Shown here: piece after piece, positions 33,782 through 48,700 of the stretch
Numbering within the stretch: position 1 is the stretch's first letter
How the letters are laid out: each line of letters opens with the position of its first letter
Made by a program: the position numbers and the translations under genes
The notes under the pieces: generated by a model
Told to the model about the DNA's origin: nothing
The model's input: only the letters and a program-made list of their open reading frames with translations
The model's database searches: none
NCBI RefSeq assembly: GCF_026151205.1
Contig: NC_087080.1
Span: 8,147,720 to 8,211,719 of the forward strand
DNA: 64,000 nt
Direction of reading: 5' to 3'
From: Bolinopsis microptera
Taxonomy: Eukaryota > Ctenophora > Tentaculata > Lobata > Bolinopsidae

Positions 33782-36700
33782 ATGAGTGAAGTTGAAAAAG
33801 CATGGATGTACCTCCGGAAGAGTAAATACAACGACATCATGGATCCTGAAGAACTGAAAGAAGGTTCTTTCTTATTTAATTAATATATTGTACATAATTA
33901 GTACAGTTAGTTTAATTACATAACCATTAACCATGTAAAGCTGCCAAGTCCTGTTTTAAGTAGTCGAATAGATGGAGCGATGATGTGAAATTAATAAGGA
34001 ACATTATTAAAACGTTATGTGTTGCGCGCGAACGCCAAACAAGATTTTAATATTCTAAAAACGTTTTTCAGCCGTTAGTGTAGCTTTTTGAAACGGCGCG
34101 CGCAGCTAATAATTTGACTGGCGGCATGCATTGATGAGACAGTGAACGTTTTAAATATTGCATACAGATAAATGTTTGCCGATTTTCATCGGATTACTAA
34201 CACATTTTTCGCTTGTTTACTATATCAATATATTTCAGTTCTCCATCTTTGTGGCAAGGATGTGACCAGCAAGCAGATCAAGACTATAATGAAGAACGAA
34301 GGAGGTAATTATACTTTTATGTTTTATGATTTTGAAGTATGATAGAGGAAATCAAAATAAAACACGATATTTATACAATTTAACAATAGAATAATGGGGA
34401 ATAAATCAGCGCAGCATATTTAATATCAGATATGTACAATAATCAATATACTTACTAATTACTTTCAATGGACGGTAACCGTAATGGGTGCCACACAGTG
34501 GCGTAACGAAGGGCCCCGCTGACCCCGCTGTGCAGGGGGGCGCCGTCTTAGCTAGGGGGGCGCCAAATCGTCGTTTGAATGTGGGACAATTTCGAAAACT
34601 TAACTAAAGTACTAGCAAAACTGCGCGTTTTGCTCAAGATTGAGTAGATACACACTTTTTTAGAGATTTTACCGGTGTGTCCTTAAAAATATTTACTTCA
34701 CGACTCGATCTTCGAGATTTTTCTAAAATTTCGATTTAAGTTGGTTTCAACTTAAATCGATGTAATTTCGGACGCTGATTCTGAATCACCCCCCATGACT
34801 TAGGGTTTACTAGATGATCCCCTGGCGCATCACTATTTGCCTAATTTTATAATGCCTTGGCGATCATTTCATTTTTCTCGACCGATTGATCCCAAATATC
34901 CATCGAAAAAAACCGATTACGCTACCGAACATTACAAATTATAGAAATTACCGTAGACAAAAATTATCCTAAAAAAAATATTTACTTCACGACTGAGCGT
35001 GCTTATAATCACTCTACACTCGATCTTCGAGATTTTTCTAAAATTTCGATTTAAGTTGAAACCAACTTAAATCGATATATTTTCGGACGCTGATTCCGAA
35101 TCATCCCCCATGACATAGAGTTTAGATGATCCCCTGGCGAGATATTGGTGAAATCTCGATCACGTGATATGACCGTATAAGGAGATTGGTCTAATTTCTC
35201 GTTAGGGTTTAAGAGTTAGGGTTTCAGGCTTCAGCATATTTACTTACTTCGTTACTTCGTTGAGTTCATCCGTGGAGCCGGAAGGGTCATCAGATATCTG
35301 ACCACCTGGATGGCGAGTAGTCGACCAGTGAGTTTGACCAACTGCAGCTGTAGCCGGCGACCGGAGGGTTGTCCGGTATCAAAGCAAGAAAGTTCGACAA
35401 ACTACACTTAAACATGTCAAAGGATGAATCAGCCTTTACTGTGTGAGGCACTTTGTTCCACAGCTTCGGTCCTTGAACTGCAAAAGACCTGTCGTACAGT
35501 GACTGGTTGCGTAAGGAACTTGACTTTGACAATGAGGGTATGACAGCTACATCCCCGTGTCTTGGGGTCACCTTGAATTTGATATCACCGCAGTTTGGTA
35601 CCACATTATGGAGAATCTTCCACATCATCAGGATGATATACCTCTCCCGTCTGCGCTGTAGAGACATCAATTTAAGCTGTACGAGTCTTTCCCAATAGTT
35701 GAGATGTTGAAGACCGCCAATACGACTGGTGAAAGTTCTTTGCACCCCCTCTATCAGCTGTATTTCAGTCACCTTGGTAGGGCTCCAGAGTGGGCAGCAA
35801 TACTCTAGTAAGCTACTTACTAGTGACTTGTAGAGAGTAATCATTACGGTCTTGTCGCGAGTTTTGAACACACTGAATACCCAAGATAGTGTGCTCCTTG
35901 CTTTGGGTACCATGTTGCCGATGTTGTCGACCAGCTAAGATCACTTGAAACCATAACTCCAAGATCTCGGACGTTTTCGACAGGATAAAGTATGTCCTGA
36001 CTGGATACTTTGTAACGCAGTGTTTCGGCAAAGAAGGGTAGTTCGGGGAATGAGCTCTTACTGTTATGGAGGTGATTTAACAGCTCGAACTTCTGCTCGT
36101 GAAGCTTCATGTTGTTGCTACGTGACCAGTCAAGAATCTTATAGATATCTTCTTGTAACAACTGACAGTCTTCAAAACAGCCAATCTGTTTGGAGACTCT
36201 AGTATCATCGGCGAAAAAACTCACCCTAGATGAGTCCACTACTTGTTCTAGATCATTGATGAACAAGATAAAGAGAAGCGGCCCCAAAACGCTTCCCTGG
36301 GGAACACCACTTAAAACCTTTGCGATAACCGAGTGAACTCCATTAAGCACCACGACTTGTTCGCGATCAAAGAGAAAGGACTTTATCCACTCTATGAGCT
36401 TGCCATATGATTTTGTTAGAGATAGTGTTAGGGTTGGGATCAGATTAGAGGGTTAGGGTTTCGAATAGTCGTTCAGGGCCAGCCATAGAACGGGTTGAAA
36501 AAGGCACGTGACAGTCGAGTGTAGAGTGATTAATCGTCATCCCTTCACGATAAGATTGCAAATGAAGTAAGTGTTAGGTTTTAGCAGTTATAATAATTCT
36601 TTGATAGCCTCATTTTCATACCTGTATCCTCTGTAAATTTAACGTTCAGGTGTCATAACGTACGAGAGACTTTTGGAGCTTGCTAGGGAGATAAAGTCGA

Positions 36701-39700
36701 TCTCACTGGACGACATTATGCGAGCCTTCAAAACGTTTGATATTAACGGTGACAATTTCATAACCCTGACTGAACTCAGTGCACTCTTACAAAAGGTTCG
36801 ATATATATCTGGTTATTTTCTTTACTTTGTATCATTGTGTTCCATTTCAGAATAAATAAAAATGGACCAAGGTCAAGCACACTTGTTTTGAAGTTTGGTC
36901 ACAACTGCTCTAATCTTTATCCAACAGTTAGGTGAGAAGATGTCTGCAACGGAGGTGGATAAAATATTTGCTACTCTTGATGTTAACAAGGACGGTAAAC
37001 TGGACTTCAAGGAGTTTACTGGACTCTATGAGAACACCTCCAGACAGCTGAACCACTTGTTATCTGTCAGAGGTATTATACTTTCAGTTCTTCGAGTAAT
37101 TGAATCAGGCGGTTTTAATATACTTCTCATATTATCCTTACTGATTACTTAGGTAAACAATTGTTTTACCTTCAGCATGCCTCGTATAATATGTTAGAGT
37201 AGAAATAGTTTGACTGTTGATTTTTGTTAGAATATGTCTGAAAACTTACCTGTCACTGCTTCAGTGCCAAATGAGAAACCTAGCACAGAAAGTAAGATAC
37301 CAGCTGTACCTAGTTCAGTGTCTGTTACCGAAACTGAAACGGAAACTGAAACTGAAACGGAAACTGAAACTGATGAAGATGATGACATCGTTGTGGTTCC
37401 TAGAAAACAGCCCCTTAAAATTGCAGGTTTGATTTTACCCGAAAGTTTACTTTTTCTATGATCCATATCGCATGAATGAAGGCTCATTTGATAGGTTCAT
37501 ACTCACCGGCAAATATTCTCATTATTTGTAACTATTCGAGGAACTCCTTCCCTAACCAGAGGACCAGGTGTAAAGAGGAATTATGAGATTGTGGGTATCA
37601 CAAATTATCAACAAACTTCATGGGCGCTCTACTCCACCTATTATCTGCACACCTTCACCACCTCATGTTGGCACGTTTATTCGATTTATTGTTTTCAATT
37701 TAATCTAATCAGGAAGGTTTCTGTGAATGTCTAAAGTAAACATTTAGTTTTATTCTTGATTTTCGCCTTATTTATCAAGTAACCCTAAACATTGTCAGAA
37801 AAAGCTAAAGCTGTGACAGATCCTAAAAAACTTACAAAAACAAAAGTCGATGAGAAAAAAGAAGAGGCCAAATCAAATGTTGTGGAAAAGAAAGAAGAGA
37901 AGAAAGAAGAGAAGGCAAAAAAAGGTCTTCAACCTAAACCGGCTGCCGAAAAGAAAAAGATAGCCACCGAGAAGAAATCAACCGAGCCCAAGAAAGCTGC
38001 ACCATCAAAAGCTAAAGAAAAGACGGTGCTAAAATCTACGACTAAATCCGCAAAACCAGCAGAAAAATCACCAAAAGCCTCAAAAGGTAAGGAATGAGGA
38101 CCAACTTTATCAAATAATGTGTATATTTATAAACAAATTGTATGAGCGGTAGGTTTTTATATAGATGAGTAGATGACTCGGTTTCACCGTTTCAAAATTT
38201 CCCACATGACATGTGAAGTCATACTAACAAACCGGTTTCTCATACTGTCCATAATATCATAACTCTGTTATCTGTGTAACCTCACTGACAAACACCCCAG
38301 AAGAAGAAGCAGCCCTGAAACACCACCGTAATGTTCGCGGTTGCACCTACGCTGGTACACGCGGTGATTGGACCGCACACCAATACCTCCTCACGGTCCC
38401 GAAGAAGACTAAACTTGTCATGCTCTTATCACCGCTCGCTCAAAGTAAGCTATTTACTTTTTAATTTCTAAGAAAATTTCTAAAGAAATTTCGAAGATGA
38501 ATGAGTCACTAATTGGTTCAAGTTTCGCAACATGTTATAACTTGACAGTTGACTCACTTAAACTGCTCCAGAAGTTTAATTCGTACACGAACAAAGTTAT
38601 TATAAAATGGTAGAAATTAGATCCCTAAATAGCTAAATGGATCTGAACGCACTTTTCGTACAAGAGAAAATACTATGATTTTCAAAATACGTGGCTCCTC
38701 AGACCCCAATTACAGAACACCCAAAATTACCGCGGATATGAGGACTTGTTCATATTCTGGCATAAGGAGCTCAGCAATATATATATGATAAAGCAGCAAC
38801 TGTTAACAGCTGATTTTACTTGGATTTAATTACAGACAAATTTAATTTCAAAACACAGCTAATTGAAATTCATGACATACACCACGCCCGTTTATAAGTC
38901 ACACGCTACAAACAGTTCATTTGGAGTTACAAAGGGCTCTTACTAATTCGCTCGCCCAAAAATTTCACGTGACTTTGGTTTTTATGGTTTTGCAGCCGTA
39001 CAAAACGGTTTTACATAAACCCTAATCCCAACCCTAACCCTAACCATAACCCCGAAGCTATCCATAACCCTTACCACAACCCTAACCCTAACCCGAGCCC
39101 TAAACAATCGAATTCATGTTTTACTAGCCTGTCACGTGACCAAAACGGTTTTTTGCCCATAACTCTCCAGGGAAGCATTTTTACCCTACGTCATGGGGGG
39201 TGATTCGGAATCAGCGTCCAAAAATACACCGATCCAGATAAATTTCATACCCAAAGGGCCTTTTCACAAGAATTTTCTTAAAATTTGGGCGAGCGATTTA
39301 GTAGGAGCGGTTACAAAGAGTCACAATACCCCTTGATGCCCCCTCAAAATAGTGATGATACACAAGCTCTGTTTCTTATCACGTGACCTCCCCGTTTTAA
39401 TCTGATTGGTGGGGGTGGGGGAGGTGCAGGTCTTAACTGAAACGTGGACTCAGATTCTGATTTAGAGAACCGTGCCCCTTGTCCAAAAATTACGTCCTTA
39501 ATAATTACTTGAGGGGTGGATGAAGAGAAAAATACTTTTTTCTCGGATCTATACTTGAATATCTGAGCTCTCAACCAACTTCCGTGCCACAACCTCCACA
39601 GTTTGCTCCTGCTGTCTCTACAGCACAGGTAGAAAATAAGAGGGTTCATTGCAGATAGAAAGCAGGGAGACAAGCAGTCCTTCATGAAGTTTATCTTAAG

Positions 39701-42700
39701 GAGAGTGTATATCATCATGGGTTTCACCGCGTGCAGGGCTATGGAGGTGGTAATGAGACGAGAAAGAGAGTGTTACCCAGGTTCATGAGAACAATTGCCC
39801 AGCTGCTCTGTCTGCATTTAGCTCGTGTCTCTGTGATCACACTCCTCTTTGTTTTAAGTAGATGGTAAATTGTTAAGAGACTGGTTATCAGAGATACCAG
39901 ACAGTGTGCCAGGTAGGGCACTGCCACTGCCATCTGCCAGCTCACGTTCGTTTCCCTCCATGAAATCTGCTGGAACCGGAGCCAGTACGGCTTCCCGGTA
40001 ACAGGGTGGCCTGGGCCACAGAACATGATGTTTCTCACCAGGACCGCCACCAGGAAGATAACGTTGAGTGCAATGTAGAAGAGTAGAGAGCGGATCCTGA
40101 AGTTGGTGAAAGGTCTGATTATCTTGATGTAGCGGGTGATGGAGAGGAGTGATGTCAGAATGGCGGAGATGGAGATTACTGTTACGTTGAATATGCTCCA
40201 GAGTTCCTACAAAGGTTTATTTGTTATTGTAAATCTATATCGCGACATATGTATGCATAACTGTGCATGGAAATGAAGTTGAGCATAAGATACAATTTTG
40301 AGCATTTCTTTTGCCAACAATCTTATCATTTTCTCACCATTTAGTCTTTACAAAATATTGCTCTACCTTCGTGAATGTAGAATGATTCTTGATAGGTGAC
40401 ACTTGGCTGCTGAGCAAATTAGATATGATAACGAAGGGGAAGGTGACATTAGTCAGGAAGTCTGCCACTGCCAGCAATTTGAAGAGTATAGCAGCAGTGG
40501 TTTTCCTCTGTGTGTGGTTGTAGTATATCAGGAGAGGATTTGCTATGCTTGATACACCGGCAAATGTACCCAGTAGCACAGCAAATGCTTTGTTGAACAC
40601 CTGATGAAGAGAGAGAGTTAGTGGATACGTGGGGACCCTTGGTGGGAGTTTGTGGTCTAAAATATTTGAATACTGTATAATGATTAAATGAATTAGAATC
40701 CTAGTTTCTCGTATCCTGCTTCGTAATCTAAAGATTTACGTATTGAATGAATAATTATTATAAACCTTGGCTTGGTTATGCATTAAGTATCAATTAAATT
40801 TTGACCCTGTATTAAATCTGAAAATGATGTCCAACCTCATCGTAGTGGTTGCCTGTATGGATAGGATGAAGCTGCCCGTCTGGTCCGGGAATTCGCTCCA
40901 CCAGGCTACCGAATATTACCATCCTAGTAGGATTAAAATGTAGGATCTTATGGTTTCATGTTATTAGTTTAATTTTGCCTTGGCTGAGTTTCTGACCATT
41001 CATGATCCAGACAGCAATAAATTTTATTAAAAGAAATTTTTAAAAACGTACAACAAACGTGAATAATTTGTTAATACTTAATAAGTGATGTCGAAAGTGT
41101 TGAAACACGTTATTATGAGTAAACTAAAACCAGTTTGAATTCCAGGTCAGGAGGACAAGGTTCTGCCCGATGTGACACTCTACCTCGTCAAAAAGGACGA
41201 TACTTCTGTTACGCTCATGTCCCTGGATCGAACCGACGATAACAGGTAATAAAATTGAGGGTAAATGTAATAAACATGTAGGTTAAGGTAACACTAACAG
41301 ATGCTACAAGTGTGATTATCTCGAATAAACTGAACGTGGCTCACTGGTCATTAGTTCATCGGACATAATTATTCCGGACATTACTTTCACGCTGAAGACC
41401 TTAGCGTGAATAATTGTGTCCGATAAGGTAGTTTGTTGGCGTTGGTGCGTTCAACATGAGAGTAAGACATTGAATATTGATGATCCGTTCAAGTTAAAAG
41501 ACACAAGGAAATCAAGGAGATCACCAAGGTAATAAATATTCAAATAGCGTTCCTGCGAAACCATGCAATTAACGCAACATCTTCCACAGCTTGTGATTAA
41601 GCTGTTTTTGAACACTCGAAAGTAAAGTACTAATATGGACTTCTTTTAGATAATGATATATGGACACGTTCATTTGAGTTTGAGGATATTGGTAAACAAA
41701 AATAATAGCGTTTTCGACGATAGTGGCTTAATTTTGACATCTATTAACCTAGCACGTTCAGAAGTTCTGAACATTAGCCACGTAACCCATACTCCCATAT
41801 GCACTGCTCAGAAAGAAAATCTATTGTTGTTAGGCACTATAATGTTTCAAATGTCACATTTTGTGTGACTTAGTTAACTGCAGTTGTCTAATTATCATTC
41901 CTTGGTCTGAAATATAGTAGATTAGGTTAATCTAACAATTATGATACAACATTGGTTAAAGTAGAAGCAGGGAGCTAACCCTACCTCTATCTTAGAGTAA
42001 AGCTGGAGGGTGAAGTAGAAGCAGGGAGCTAACCCTACCTCTATTTCAGAGTAAAGCTGGAGGGTGAAGTAGAAGCAGGGAGCTAACCCTACCTCTATTT
42101 CATAGTAAAACTGGAGGATGAAGAAGAAGCAGGGAGCTAACCCTACCTCTATTTCATAGTAAAACTGGAGGATGAAGAAGAAGCAGGGAGCTAACCCTAC
42201 CTCTATTTCAGAGTAAAACTGGAGGGTGAAGTAGAAGCAGGGAGCTAACCCTACCTCTATTTCAGAGTAAAGCTGGAGGATAAAGTAGAAGCAGGGACCT
42301 AACCCTACCTCTATTTCAGAGTAAAGCTGGAGGGTGAAGTAGAAGCAGGGAGTTACTCAGTTCTGACCCACACAACAAGTTGTAACTTTGTGAACGAGTC
42401 CGATCTGCCCATCACTCCCGTCCCGGTGAAAAGTGAACAGAAGCTGAGTCCTACTGCTGCGTGAGTTTAATGAGTACGCCTATAATATAATTTCTTAGAA
42501 CATTACAAAATATTAAGCACAGCTGTTTACTATTTTTTAATTGAAACTCCTTTAAATCAATCAATTACATACAAATTACACAATGGAATAGGCTACAAAA
42601 TATACCTTGAGAGACTACGGTGTACAAATTATCGTTTTATAATCTACTAGTGTAACCCGGCCTTCGGCCGTGATTTCACTGCCGCAGTTAAAAAGGGTAG

Positions 42701-45700
42701 GACTATTTACCCGCTGAGTCAAAACCTGCATCAGGTGACCAATTCTATTCGGAGACCGGAGTACCCTCACTTATCCAACAGTATTTAACATCATTGCATA
42801 ATCAGTTCTTTCTCGTGGATAATTGAGTCATTATTAGGCACCACATTCAATGATCATAAGGTCCGTACACCGACTATTACACCGCTTTCCATTTTTATTT
42901 AAATCTTTAAAAAATTAACCCTTATTAACTCCGGCCTCCGCACCACACCCGCCTATTATATTTGAAAACATGCATTAAATTGTCGTATGAAAGGATGAAC
43001 TCTCTCTACAGTCCAAACAGACCGCAATGAGCGCTTCCTCCCCTAATAAGCTTATAGTATATATTACATGACAATTGACAGTGTAATTATGAAATATATG
43101 ATATATGTACCAACGCTACATAATATGCAGTAATGGGAGAGAGAGCGAGGAGGGAGAAAATGTGAGCCATTTTATTTAACATTTGTGGTACAAGGGGTTT
43201 TCCAAACACAAGGGGTTTTCCAAACTCCAGGGGCTCGTGAAGTGTCTTACACAACCTCTCCGAGCCCAAGATCCGTAGTGCGTGGTGAAGAGCCACACCC
43301 TTCTCGAGGTGCCACTGTTAAGCTTAGTAGCCTGTTCTGGGTGATTCCAGTTAAAACAGGTGAACGGTAACAGAACACTGCGGCTCTAGACCAGTACAGG
43401 TCGAAAAATATAACCGGGACATCTGTCTCGTTAGGACTGCATGCAGTTCATCGGGTGCGAAGGGCCAGCATCCCTTCCACCTCAAATAACAACGCTACTG
43501 AAACAACACACACATCAAATGGACGGAGTGCTACTTCCAATTCAAGGACGGATGGTTCCAGCATGACGGAGGCTGGGCAAAGCCTACGGGACCCCAGTCG
43601 CCTGATGAGAAGAGGGGTTACTCGTCATCTGACCAGATTTATTAGTCAACAGATCATCCATGTTGACCCTGCTTCCAACAAATCCAATCCAGTAAATTAT
43701 TGCAAACAGTTTTTACGTTTTGGAACATGGAACGTTCTATCTCTTGTCAGCTCATCTACACAGCTCTACCAACTTAGTCAAAACATTGATCAGTACAGAT
43801 TGGATCTTTTGGGGATCACCGAGACTCACATGCCTGGATCTGGCACCACTCTACTGGACAATGGCAGTCTACTCATCCATTCCGGTAGAGTCGACGGGAT
43901 CAAGAGACAGGGAGTCGGTCTCAGTCTTTCAAAACGAATCAGAAACTCCCTGATATCGTTCACTCCCACATCGGAGCGGGTTTTAACTGCTAGGCTGCAT
44001 AGTAAGCAAATCAACATCTCTGTTGTTGTGGCCTATGCTCCAACTGAGGGTGCAGAGGAGAGTGAGAAAGATAAGTTTTATAGGACACTCACAGATACAT
44101 TTGATGGGCTACCTCGTCACGATATCAAGTTACTGCTCGGCGATTTTAATGCAAAAGTAACATCAGGCAGATATGGAAGTGAAGCGGTCATCGGTGGGGA
44201 ATCACTCCATAGCTCATCAAATGACAACGGGACAAGACTTGTGGATTTCTGTGCGACGAACCAGCTTGTCATCGGGGGAACTCTCTTCGAGCACAAGAAA
44301 ATTCACAAGGGAACATGGCGGTCCCCCAACGGGATCACCGTCAATCAGATAGATCATATCTGCATTGGAAAGCGGTTTCGTCAGTCACTTTTTGATGTTA
44401 GGGTATGTCGCGGGGCAGACATCGGCTCCGATCATTATCTGGTTCTAGGACTGCTGAAAATCAAACTTCAGTCAGTGACAAAGATCAACGCCAACAGGCC
44501 CAATGTGCCTGCCATTGAGCGCCTGAGGGATAGTACTACGGTTACAGAGTACAATGTGGCTCTTCAAAACCGATTTGCAAGTCTGGATAGTGAGGTCAAC
44601 CTCGAGGATATGTGGCGTAATCTCAGTCAGACCGTCACTGATGTCTCACTGGAGGTACTAGGCAAGAGACCCCGGAAGGCAAAGGAGCAACACCTGTCAC
44701 GGAAGACCAAGGATTTATTGATTCAGCGGGCACAGTTTAAGCGCAAAGACCCAAACTCGGACGCTAACAGGTCAGAGTATTCTAAACTTAATAAGTTAGT
44801 CAAGAAAAGCAGCAAGCTAGACGACAATAACTGGGCAGTTAGAGTAGCTACTGATCTTGAGGAAGCAGCGAGCAAAGGTCAGCAGCGTGAAGTATGGGCA
44901 AAGATCAAGAAGATCTCTGGTAAGAACAAGAAGCCTCAAGCATCTTGTGTCCGGGACAAGGACGGTAGGAAGATCACGGATCCCCAACAGCAGAGGGATA
45001 GGTGGAAGGAGCACTTTACTGAACTTCTGAACCCTCCATTATCAAGTGTCGACCTTGCCGACCTTGATACAGTACCACCCCAACCCCACTTTAACTCTCT
45101 CTCTTGTTCGGATGGACCACCCACCAGAGACGAGATTAGTTACTCCCTGACAAAGCTTAAGAACAACAAAAGCCCAGGAGTGGACGGGATAACTAACGAG
45201 CAACTGAAGTATGGTGCGAGTGCTCTAGTTGATCAACTAGAGTGTCTATTCAAGAAAGTCTGGGAAGAAGAGACTGTTCCTGAAGATTGGTTAAAGGGTG
45301 TGATCATTGTTATTGGGAAGAAAGGAGACACTTCAGTCTGCGGGAACAACAGAGGGATCACCTTAAGGTCTACAGCATCTAAGCTTTTTCAGATGATTCT
45401 TCTTAAGCGGTTACATGCTGGTATGGAGTGTCTTCTCAGGGAGAATCAGTGCGGATTTAGACAGAACCGCTCATGTATTGATCAGATTTATTCTCTCCGA
45501 ACTATTATTCATAACTGTCTTGAGTTTAACATTCCTCTCTACATTAATTTTGTCGATTTCAAGGCAGCGTTCGATTCTATCAGAAGGGACTTTATTTGGT
45601 GCAGTATGAGACACTATGGGCTGCCTGAAAAATATGTCAGAATATTTCAGTCATTTTTTGGGGGTACCATGAGTGCCGTGAGGGTTAATGGGGAGCTGAC

Positions 45701-48700
45701 AGACTGGTTTGATGTTAACTCAGGCACAGGTCAGGGCGACATTCAAGCACCTCCTGTCTTTAATTTCTGCCTAAACTTTTCTGCATTTCTGGCTGAGACC
45801 AACAAGATCATCAGTCAAGGCGCAGTGCTGCAGAAAGAGACGAAGACGGTCGAGGAAAAGGTCATTTTGGACACCGATTATGCTGATGACATGGCTATTA
45901 TGGACAACTCAGGGGAAGGCCTACAGGAGTCAACTGATCTATTAGTTCATTACAGCTCCTACGCTGGGCTCAGAATAAATGCAAAGAAGACCCAATGCAT
46001 GGCTGTAAGCAAGTGCGCCTCCCAGCGACCTTTCATCAAGGATGATTGTATTGAGCTGTCGGTTGAGGGTGAACCCGTCGAGCAGGTTAGCAACTTTGTC
46101 TACCTGGGTGCAACTATCAGTGGGGATGGGACAATCAACAGAGACCTGGATGTCCGTATCCAGAAGGCTAATGGCGCCTTTCATCAGCTCTGGAACATTT
46201 GGAATAGCAGAACTATAAAGACTCCAACCAAGATCAGGATCTATAGGGCTGCTGTCCTCACCATCTTGTTGTACGGAGCTAATGTCTCAAACACCACCAA
46301 AAAGCAGATGAAACGCTTCGAGGTTTTCCATCAAACCTCCTTGAGAAGGATCCTTAGGATTAAATGGTTCTTTCATGTGACCAACGAAGAAGTTCTTAGG
46401 AGGGCTGGCATCAAGTCAGTCGAGACTTTCATCAGTGCTGCCAGGTTACGTTGGTATGGACATGTAGTTAGAATGCCAGACTCTAGACTACCAAGGTTTC
46501 TGTTGAACTGGAAGCCAAATTATGGAAAGAGGTCAAGGGGCAGACCCCGTAAGAACTGGAAGTCCTGCGTACTCGAAGATGCTGCTAAGTTTACAGGTGT
46601 TGAAAACATCGACAACAACACGACAGAAGCTTTGGCTACCAACCGAGTACAGTGGAGACATATGTTACGCCGCCAACGCGATGTGTGTGATGCAGGCCAC
46701 TCCAACGACTAGGAGGAGACCTTACCATGTATGTATGTACAAAACCATCAATTAAACCACTTTCCACCGACCGATTTAAAAAACATTTACCATTTGTCTT
46801 CCTCATAGTTTTCTCGGTACTATACCGAAAAAAAGTCCAATAACTCTAACCATTTTCTTGATTAAGCCGCTCGGAAATTACCCTCGCACACACACACACA
46901 GACATACACAGAGACACACACTCTGAGATTATTGTTTAAGATTGAAAAGGCGAGAAAGGTTGGCTGATTGAATTACTCTAAAAACTCAAAACTTGGAGGC
47001 CAGCTTTTCACGGCTTCAATAATGAAGATTCTTCGTTTTCTTGGCTTTTATCGCGTCTAGTCAGTTAAATATAATGATTTGACTAGTGGTCCGTGATGTG
47101 GCGAATCTATTCCAATTTCCAAGTAAATTATGTCAATTGTGGAGTTAAAAGTGCCTATCAAATACGTTTGAAGTGCATCAACGACCAATGAAATCACCCT
47201 ACAGTAAATTCGCTGTCACGTATTTTAATCACGTATTTAAGCCTTATTTCAGTTTATGTCCAGTTTATCAACAGTTTATTAACCTAAGATGAGAAGTACG
47301 AATGAGTCGGACTTTTCAATTTACTCGTATCGTACGTACTTTTCAATTCTATTGAAAAGTTCTCCTTCTAGAAATCGATGGAAGAGTTCTAAATCGCATG
47401 TTACGGACTAATATTGAGCGTTTTCAAAAACTTGTGTTTCTATATTCCAATCGTCGATTAACTTAAAGTTTAACTTTAAGAGAAACAAGCTGTTTAAATA
47501 AGTAAATTGTCTAGCAATTTTGTAGAATTTTTGTTTTACTTTAAAATGCTTGCCTGACCTAAGAATTGTGTGTTTAATTTATTCGCGAACGGTATATTTT
47601 CTCTAACATCGGCAAACAATTACATTTTACAACGGCCCCGATGATAATAATTCAAAAACAAAAAAATTCTATCTGAATCGTACGTCGTATGAGTCGGACT
47701 TTTCAAAGTTGCGTACAAGTACGTACTTTTCCCCCTAAACGAGTCCGTACTTCTCATCTTAGTTATTAACCTTCTGTCAAGTAGTTGACAGTTATTCTGT
47801 GTATATAAGACTTATAGTTGCCAGGGTAAAGAGGCACCCTTGCTATAAGCTATCAGATTTCCTGTGCAGACGTCAGCAATGGTTCGTCTAGCATAGTTAT
47901 TTAAATAAGACACAGTGGCCCCCAAGTAATTGCTCACACGCAATAAACCTTTAATATGTCACGAAATTTGTGTCAGAATTGCACAAACATTTCAGAGATC
48001 ACAGATATATGGATCGAACTTTCAACTTATGGATCAAACTATATAGATTTCTAAACAGTAAATTTAAGTCGATAACAGTGAGTGTGGCATTCCCTCCTTA
48101 TTTTTCACAATTGTAGTCATGAAAAAATAACGCTTCTAGCTAGGAAGTCGAAATATTGTGTACACATTTGGTTGGACGAATGAACACTTAAAGCTTGGGG
48201 TGAACGTAATTGTACTGACAAAAAACAGAGGCGAAATTCAAATTTCAAATTCAAATTCTGTTGGATAACGATTTTGGGTATTCACCCAAGGGACACTTGT
48301 GCCAAGTTTCAGGCCGTGGGTGTGGACAGTATTTTCCAAAAGTCGAGATTCACTTTAAAAAAATTCTAAGTTTAAGTTTTACTAGTATATTAAAGGTATT
48401 AACCTCAAACTTTAACGCGAAATATCTAAAGAACGTAAAGTTAGATGCAGTTAATCCTACTTGTTGGTTTCCAGCAGTTCTATCACAGACTATATAATCG
48501 ATTTTTTATCTCCCGCCTAGCTTTAACTATTTAAAAACTCTGATAGCTATATAGTCGGGTCTCAGTCAAATTATCTGACCTTGTGGTATAAGGCGATCAA
48601 ATCATTGGATTCACTAAATGTAAACTCTAACTGGGAGTGTCTAAGAGATATAAGCAAATAAGCCGGAGATTAGTAAGAACTGAGAAATTTAAGTAATGGA

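Follow-up and report, generated by a model that had tools for sequence, protein, structure and literature searches.

The window, the whole 64,000-base stretch of ctenophore DNA that was analyzed (GC content, 37.4%), contains an EF-hand gene in which one intron ends in a tandem array of 54-bp units that crosses the acceptor and enters the following exon (Table 1). The exons on either side of this intron joined in phase 2 and kept the reading frame open. Pfam searches identified an EF-hand pair (E 1.1e-18) in the joined exons around 36650-37072; a second, weak EF-hand match, which fell below the cut-off (E 0.005), came from the region of about 56600. The two exons flanking the array-bearing intron matched no Pfam family, and a PDB search with both of them returned a single match (E 1.2). 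The gene is putatively EFCAB7, the name used in the earlier note, which agrees with the order of the EF-hands and with the human protein.

Table 1. Positions, in the window, of the array, its candidate acceptors and the surrounding exons and intron.
Feature	Position	Strand	Evidence
Upstream exon, EFCAB7-like gene	41146..41245	+	Open in one frame only; phase 2; donor ACAG/GTAATA (slash marks the junction); continuous with next exon
Intron, 1,074 nt, array at its 3' end	41246..42319	+	GT-AG, phase continuity
Tandem array of 54-bp units (7 complete, then a 16-bp partial copy)	41959..42352	+	Tandem Repeats Finder, sequence
Unit 1 acceptor AG (TTAG)	41994..41995	+	PWM score above 5/29 reference acceptors
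Unit 2 acceptor AG	42048..42049	+	Matches true site in all 21 intron bases and 33 exon bases of the unit
Unit 3 AG, two bases 3' of lost CAG	42104..42105	+	Weak, above 3/29
Unit 4 AG, two bases 3' of lost CAG	42158..42159	+	Weak, above 3/29
Unit 5 acceptor AG	42210..42211	+	21 intron bases equal to those of true site
Unit 6 acceptor AG	42264..42265	+	21 intron bases equal to those of true site
CTAAC, branch-point-like motif of exon-nearest unit	42299..42303	+	Sequence; branch-point role putative
Unit 7 AG, putative true acceptor	42318..42319	+	Only open-frame choice among 11 AGs tested; PWM score above 19/29
Exon, 141 nt (multiple of three)	42320..42460	+	First 33 nt equal to exon part of unit; donor GC/GTGAGT

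Three further features were observed around this intron. A weak 21-bp repeat (41244-41291; 2.3 copies, 74% matches) crossed its donor. On the 3' side of exon 42320-42460, an uninterrupted frame of 1,113 amino acids with endonuclease and reverse transcriptase domains (43371-46709) belonged to a LINE-like element that apparently lies inside the next intron. Minus-strand frames at 39742-40735, between two exons of the EF-hand gene, may represent a receptor gene nested in it; two of these frames were scanned, and one gave a weak match, below the cut-off (E 0.00013), to a family of 7TM receptors.

Structure and history of the array

Tandem Repeats Finder assigned the array a period of 54 bp with 7.3 copies, 95% matches, 0% indels, and a score of 690, in agreement with the earlier note, which had described seven 54-bp units at an EFCAB7 exon. 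Seven full units (41959-42336) were followed by a 16-bp partial copy (AAGTAGAAGCAGGGAG) located inside the exon, where the array ends. When the array was cut at the CTAAC motifs, each of the seven blocks consisted of 21 intron bases (CTAAC, a pyrimidine-rich run, and AG) and 33 exon-start bases, and block 7 continued into the true exon, whose sequence no longer follows the repeat from base 34 onward. The description of each unit as an acceptor followed by about 33 bases of exon start was thereby confirmed, with the AG shifted by two bases in units 3 and 4. GT dinucleotides were present in every unit, and 16 exon-derived bases preceded the first CTAAC at the 5' edge.

Such an array is not attributable to chance. 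A comparison of its DNA with the whole genome (264,652,675 bases, 232 contigs), using a search in which only the top candidates are scored and very frequent words are passed over, gave no other match besides the array itself. Degenerate older copies of the unit were not seen in the remainder of the intron (best local score of 14 versus a shuffled median of 16), and Rfam gave no match at the gathering threshold. A coding repeat on the minus strand, where 41922-42356 is open, was considered and rejected, since a period of 54 keeps open any frame that lacks a stop; a gene there was unsupported.

Blocks 3 and 4 were identical 54-mers, as were blocks 2 and 7, and variants were shared among neighboring units, a pattern of turnover between units (concerted evolution). 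The differences between units were staggered along the array. Because blocks 3 and 4 are identical, the loss of CAG in these two units would most simply represent one mutation that was later duplicated once. The earlier suggestion that the array grew by slippage across the intron-exon boundary was borne out by the identical block pairs and by similarly built arrays elsewhere in the genome, which support growth by slippage or by unequal exchange across this boundary. The same note had proposed that selection possibly acts on the acceptor; the numbers of variable columns in the three parts of the unit (2/16, 3/21, and 3/17) did not bear this out, the acceptor part being no less variable. The 16 exon-derived bases at the 5' edge are not explained by a single clean duplication; the left edge may have been trimmed, or the initial event may have been more complex.

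Competing acceptors and their stops

The array offered seven acceptors including the true one, and not up to eight as first proposed. The AG was found at its home position in five of the seven units and two bases further on in the other two; in these, CAG had changed to CAT, so that the reported loss of CAG was correct, but the AG was retained two bases downstream (CATAG). The TTAG of unit 1 is still a possible acceptor. Units 2, 5, 6, and 7 shared identical 21 intron bases and scored equally, above 19 of the 29 reference acceptors, with a small position weight matrix (PWM) built from acceptors of the same genome (19 from CCT chaperonin genes and 10 from the EF-hand gene) whose junctions were placed by eye. 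In the exon-nearest unit, the distance from the fourth base (A) of CTAAC to the intron end was 17 nt. A CTAAC whose A precedes the end of the intron by 10 to 20 nt occurred in one of the 29 reference introns; judged from these introns, such a placement is not the rule in this genome.

When joined to 41245, all six upstream acceptors led to a stop within 5-12 codons. For units 1, 2, 5, and 6, the stop was a TAA located 11 codons past the junction codon, and for the shifted AG sites of units 3 and 4, it was a TGA 4 codons past it. Four extra AGs, two bases 3' of the CAGs in units 2, 5, 6, and 7, all led to stops as well. The claim that every upstream unit carries an in-frame TAA was therefore right about the premature stop (6/6) and wrong about the codon in units 3 and 4, where the CATAG site leads to TGA. 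The TAA that follows each home-position upstream acceptor is part of the CTAAC of the following unit. The stop needs no selection, because a copied CTAAC that is read as exon gives this stop in one of the three frames.

Similar arrays elsewhere in the genome

A genome-wide search combined CTAAC and TTTCAG at tandem-unit spacings. The patterns matched 203, 136, and 106 times, compared with 49, 59, and 15 times for the reversed patterns; these pair counts represent copies within arrays and not arrays, a single array contributing many of the rows. No enrichment at splice sites is therefore claimed for the arrays, although the forward counts exceeded the reversed ones. Twenty other array loci (L010-L029) were picked by eye among the matches listed (about 100 per list), leaving out repeated-looking entries such as C1:25593266, C3:16762476, C7:998661, and C7:11570429. 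Judged by their frames, their donors, and their resemblance to known exons or to the window array, 13 of the 20 arrays seemed to abut or enter an exon (L010-L015, L019, L021-L024, L028, and L029), many of these exon calls being readings of open frames. Among the other seven, L018, L020, L025, and L027 had no clear exon, the array of L026 ran off the locus, and L016 and L017, for which the data were repeat tables and flank scores, were placed outside the 13.

Pfam was applied to the exons of eight of the 13 loci, a set that left out L014, L015, L019, L022, and L029. Two exons matched above the cut-off (L011, PSI; L013, NF-YA), two had plausible matches below it (L024, reprolysin, E 7.9e-5; L012, ketoacyl synthase, E 0.0019), and the remaining four were unsupported. 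At L013:645-1225 (C4:10257344-10257924), about nine 65-bp units preceded the NF-YA exon; the true acceptor of this locus is uncertain, because an in-frame TGA separates the array from the NF-YA frame. Of 19 arrays, 14 had a higher codon-usage score in the 3' than in the 5' flank (p 0.008 by Wilcoxon test, p 0.064 by sign test). The mean score of the 3' flanks, 0.02, was close to the -0.05 of introns, a reference that may include unrecognized exons, and far below the 0.51 of exons, a reference that is the training set itself. The training set was without the CCT gene L005 and without matches containing stops; the 19 arrays included six loci outside the 13 and were without L026, because its array extends beyond the locus. 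With 0.56, L016, which is not among the 13, had the highest flank score, and the codon-usage score is a weak aid as exon evidence.

The arrays differed in how far they extended into the exon. Long copying of the exon start, as in the window, was found at L010, L012, L013, L014, L024, and L028 and, in diverged form, at L029. At L011, L015, L021, L022, and L023, the array ended no more than a few bases from the splice site, and at L019, it ended just before the last acceptor. The unit lengths of the 14 exon-adjacent arrays, with the window array first, were 54, 46, 32, 65, 65, 42, 25, 32, 23, 34, 34, 77, 54, and 41 bp. A multiple-of-three unit was rejected as a sign of coding use; because only three of these 14 arrays have one (the window array, L014, and L028), the divisibility of 54 by three looks like chance. 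In the window array (at 42352) and, by reading, at L010, L012, L013, and L024, the exon part was joined directly to CTAAC. This joint may hint at the origin of the first duplication, or it may be meaningless given the bias of the search. A rule that units always begin at the branch-point motif was rejected: L014 and L028 have CTAAC inside the exon-derived part, and the search required a nearby CTAAC, which makes the sample biased.

Repeats with a period of at least 20 covered 1,367 of the 64,000 window bases (2.1%) and 3,372 of 91,907 sampled bases (3.7%), a sample that includes the window and in which L003 alone contributed 1,949 bases. With this coverage, junction-spanning arrays are to be expected. 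At about 2%, a dozen introns give a gene a fair chance of containing one such array, and chance placement is enough to account for the one in the window. The repeat of L003 (L003:2949-4776; C13, a CCT chaperonin gene) had a period of 30 bp and about 61 copies that were rich in CTAACC and pyrimidines. It occupied most of a 2,399-nt intron and ended about 19 bases before the exon, such that branch-point-like motifs were multiplied and the final AG was uncopied.

Discussion

The window array probably belongs to the minisatellites known as "mirages": we assign a probability of roughly 0.78 to the reading that it arose by tandem duplication and slippage, that its exon-nearest acceptor is the one used, and that it is mainly a by-product of a genome with many short tandem duplications. 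The array and its phase are established directly, as are the stops, the identical sites, and the similar arrays elsewhere, and they would fit the following course. In a first duplication, exon base 33 would have been joined to the intron's own CTAAC motif, and slippage or unequal exchange would then have added units. The spliceosome would mostly pick unit 7, with pairing across the 141-nt exon to the donor at 42461 favoring the nearest complete acceptor; the upstream acceptors would be silent or would give rise to rare transcripts with an early stop, and the array would be tolerated because one intact site stays beside the exon. Exon definition is plausible as the chooser of the acceptor, because the 24 introns measured span 125 to 2,399 nt. 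A preference for the first acceptor of the intron would instead make most messages of the gene truncated. Against exclusive use of the exon-nearest site stands the observation that the acceptors of units 2, 5, and 6 score the same as the true one. In classical experiments with duplicated sites, the donor-proximal site can be favored; given these experiments and the equal scores, leakage to the upstream acceptors could be large.

Mirages have been described in the Adh3, globin, troponin C, and PGBD5 genes of lancelets, according to excerpts of two papers (PMC3087553, PMC3902484), the second of which reports similar repeats for PGBD5 (PMC3902484). In these excerpts, the units measure about 10 to 160 bases and contain the end of the intron together with the splice site and the beginning of the exon, or else the donor side; they evolve in concert within an array, and splice signals are retained in many of them (PMC3087553, PMC3902484). 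The same excerpts report undisturbed splicing (PMC3087553, PMC3902484); RT-PCR suggested that it was normal, and the Adh and troponin C mirages are stated to generate no aberrant mRNAs (PMC3902484). The window array resembles what is described there in its boundary-spanning unit, in its minisatellite size (54 bp, within the lancelet range), in the turnover between its units, and in the retention of the splice signal in many of them. It differs in its ctenophore host and in being one of many loci recovered by a few motif searches of a single genome. In the literature searched, among the matches listed, mirages under that name were found for lancelets only, and repeats at exon-intron boundaries are known from human DNA, as described in part of PMC2812944. 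The host group, the number of loci at which such arrays occur, and the identical competing sites seem to be new.

The earlier note had suggested that the upstream acceptors could act as a poison-exon switch. Under this reading, their regulated use would produce an early stop and nonsense-mediated decay and thereby set the level of the gene. In the poison exons of splicing-factor genes, an alternative splice choice brings in a stop codon. The window array is comparable to the extent that alternative acceptors lead to stops in all six cases (5-12 codons) and that three of the upstream sites have the 21 intron bases and the score of the true one. It is unlike them in that the stop comes from a copied branch-point motif and in that no sign of conservation or regulation was seen within the array. 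The in-frame CTAAC accounts for the stop, a unit length divisible by three is found in just 3 of 14 comparable arrays, the acceptor part lacks any excess conservation within the array, and the lancelet counterparts are reported to splice normally in the excerpts cited (PMC3087553, PMC3902484). The switch is thus unsupported, and we regard it as unlikely.

More improbable still is an intron nursery, in which the units would serve as tiny exons or introns at an intermediate stage of intron gain by tandem duplication. This model was proposed for lancelet mirages (PMC3087553) and for Drosophila, where introns arising by tandem duplication are described (PMC2891723; both papers as excerpted), and the GT dinucleotides in each unit would agree with it. 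As in the Drosophila excerpt, a short tandem duplication has copied splice signals; there, however, the duplicated segment must be removed as an intron (PMC2891723), whereas an intron between neighboring units would measure at most 54 nt, compared with 125 nt for the shortest of the 24 introns measured. Micro-introns between neighboring units were rejected on these grounds, although jumps over several units would be long enough; by eye, no strong donor was present in the unit. Human segmental duplications contain variable internal tandem repeats at exon-intron boundaries with an average unit of 30 bp and 4 copies, according to the available part of PMC2812944. They share with the window array the expansion of a minisatellite at such a boundary; they differ in varying between recent paralogs and in being reported, in some cases, to form novel introns (PMC2812944), whereas the DNA of the window array had a single match in its genome and a unit-sized intron is not expected. 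The least probable alternative, an assembly artefact through which the real array would be shorter or longer than seven units, recalls the excerpted report that one lancelet mirage looks aberrantly assembled in the draft used (PMC3087553), but the staggered differences between units argue against a simple duplication of reads, and the existence of the array is beyond doubt.

The array bears on how splice sites are chosen. Choice by sequence and choice by position are hard to separate, since competing sites usually differ in sequence. Unit 2 matches the true site in all of its 21 intron bases and 33 exon bases, and any preference between the two must therefore come from position or from the wider context. 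The comparison could apparently be repeated in several further genes of this genome, whose arrays differ in unit length and copy number. A broader proposal, which we put forward tentatively and consider doubtful as a whole, is that boundary-spanning arrays are widespread, in hundreds or thousands of genes and on both the donor and the acceptor sides, and that the exon-nearest of identical sites is chosen by position alone through exon definition. If this were true, the arrays would be ready-made, polymorphic experiments in splice choice and might contribute to differences in gene output between individuals.

Arrays on the donor side

Donor motifs were counted over the whole genome as copies and not as arrays. 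Pairs of AGGTAAGT spaced at 20-50 bases occurred 1797 times, compared with 44 for the reversed pattern. For CAGGTAAGT, pairs at 25-55 bases numbered 507 versus 2 reversed, and single occurrences 2465 versus 1212 reversed, these again being counts of copies. Two of the three donor-side arrays that were read adjoined exon-like frames; nothing clear adjoined the third. The first, a 54-bp donor-spanning array at L030/L031 (C1:428531 to C1:430927), would comprise about 44 units as estimated from its length, its middle part being unread, and it adjoined the end of a Sushi-like exon (Pfam E 0.002, just below the cut-off). The frame adjoining the second had no Pfam match and is presumably dynein-like. 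At C8:7268823-7269127, the unit of a 37-bp array consisted of TTATTTCAG followed directly by GTAAGT, which places acceptor and donor motifs back to back in an arrangement that resembles recursive splice sites.
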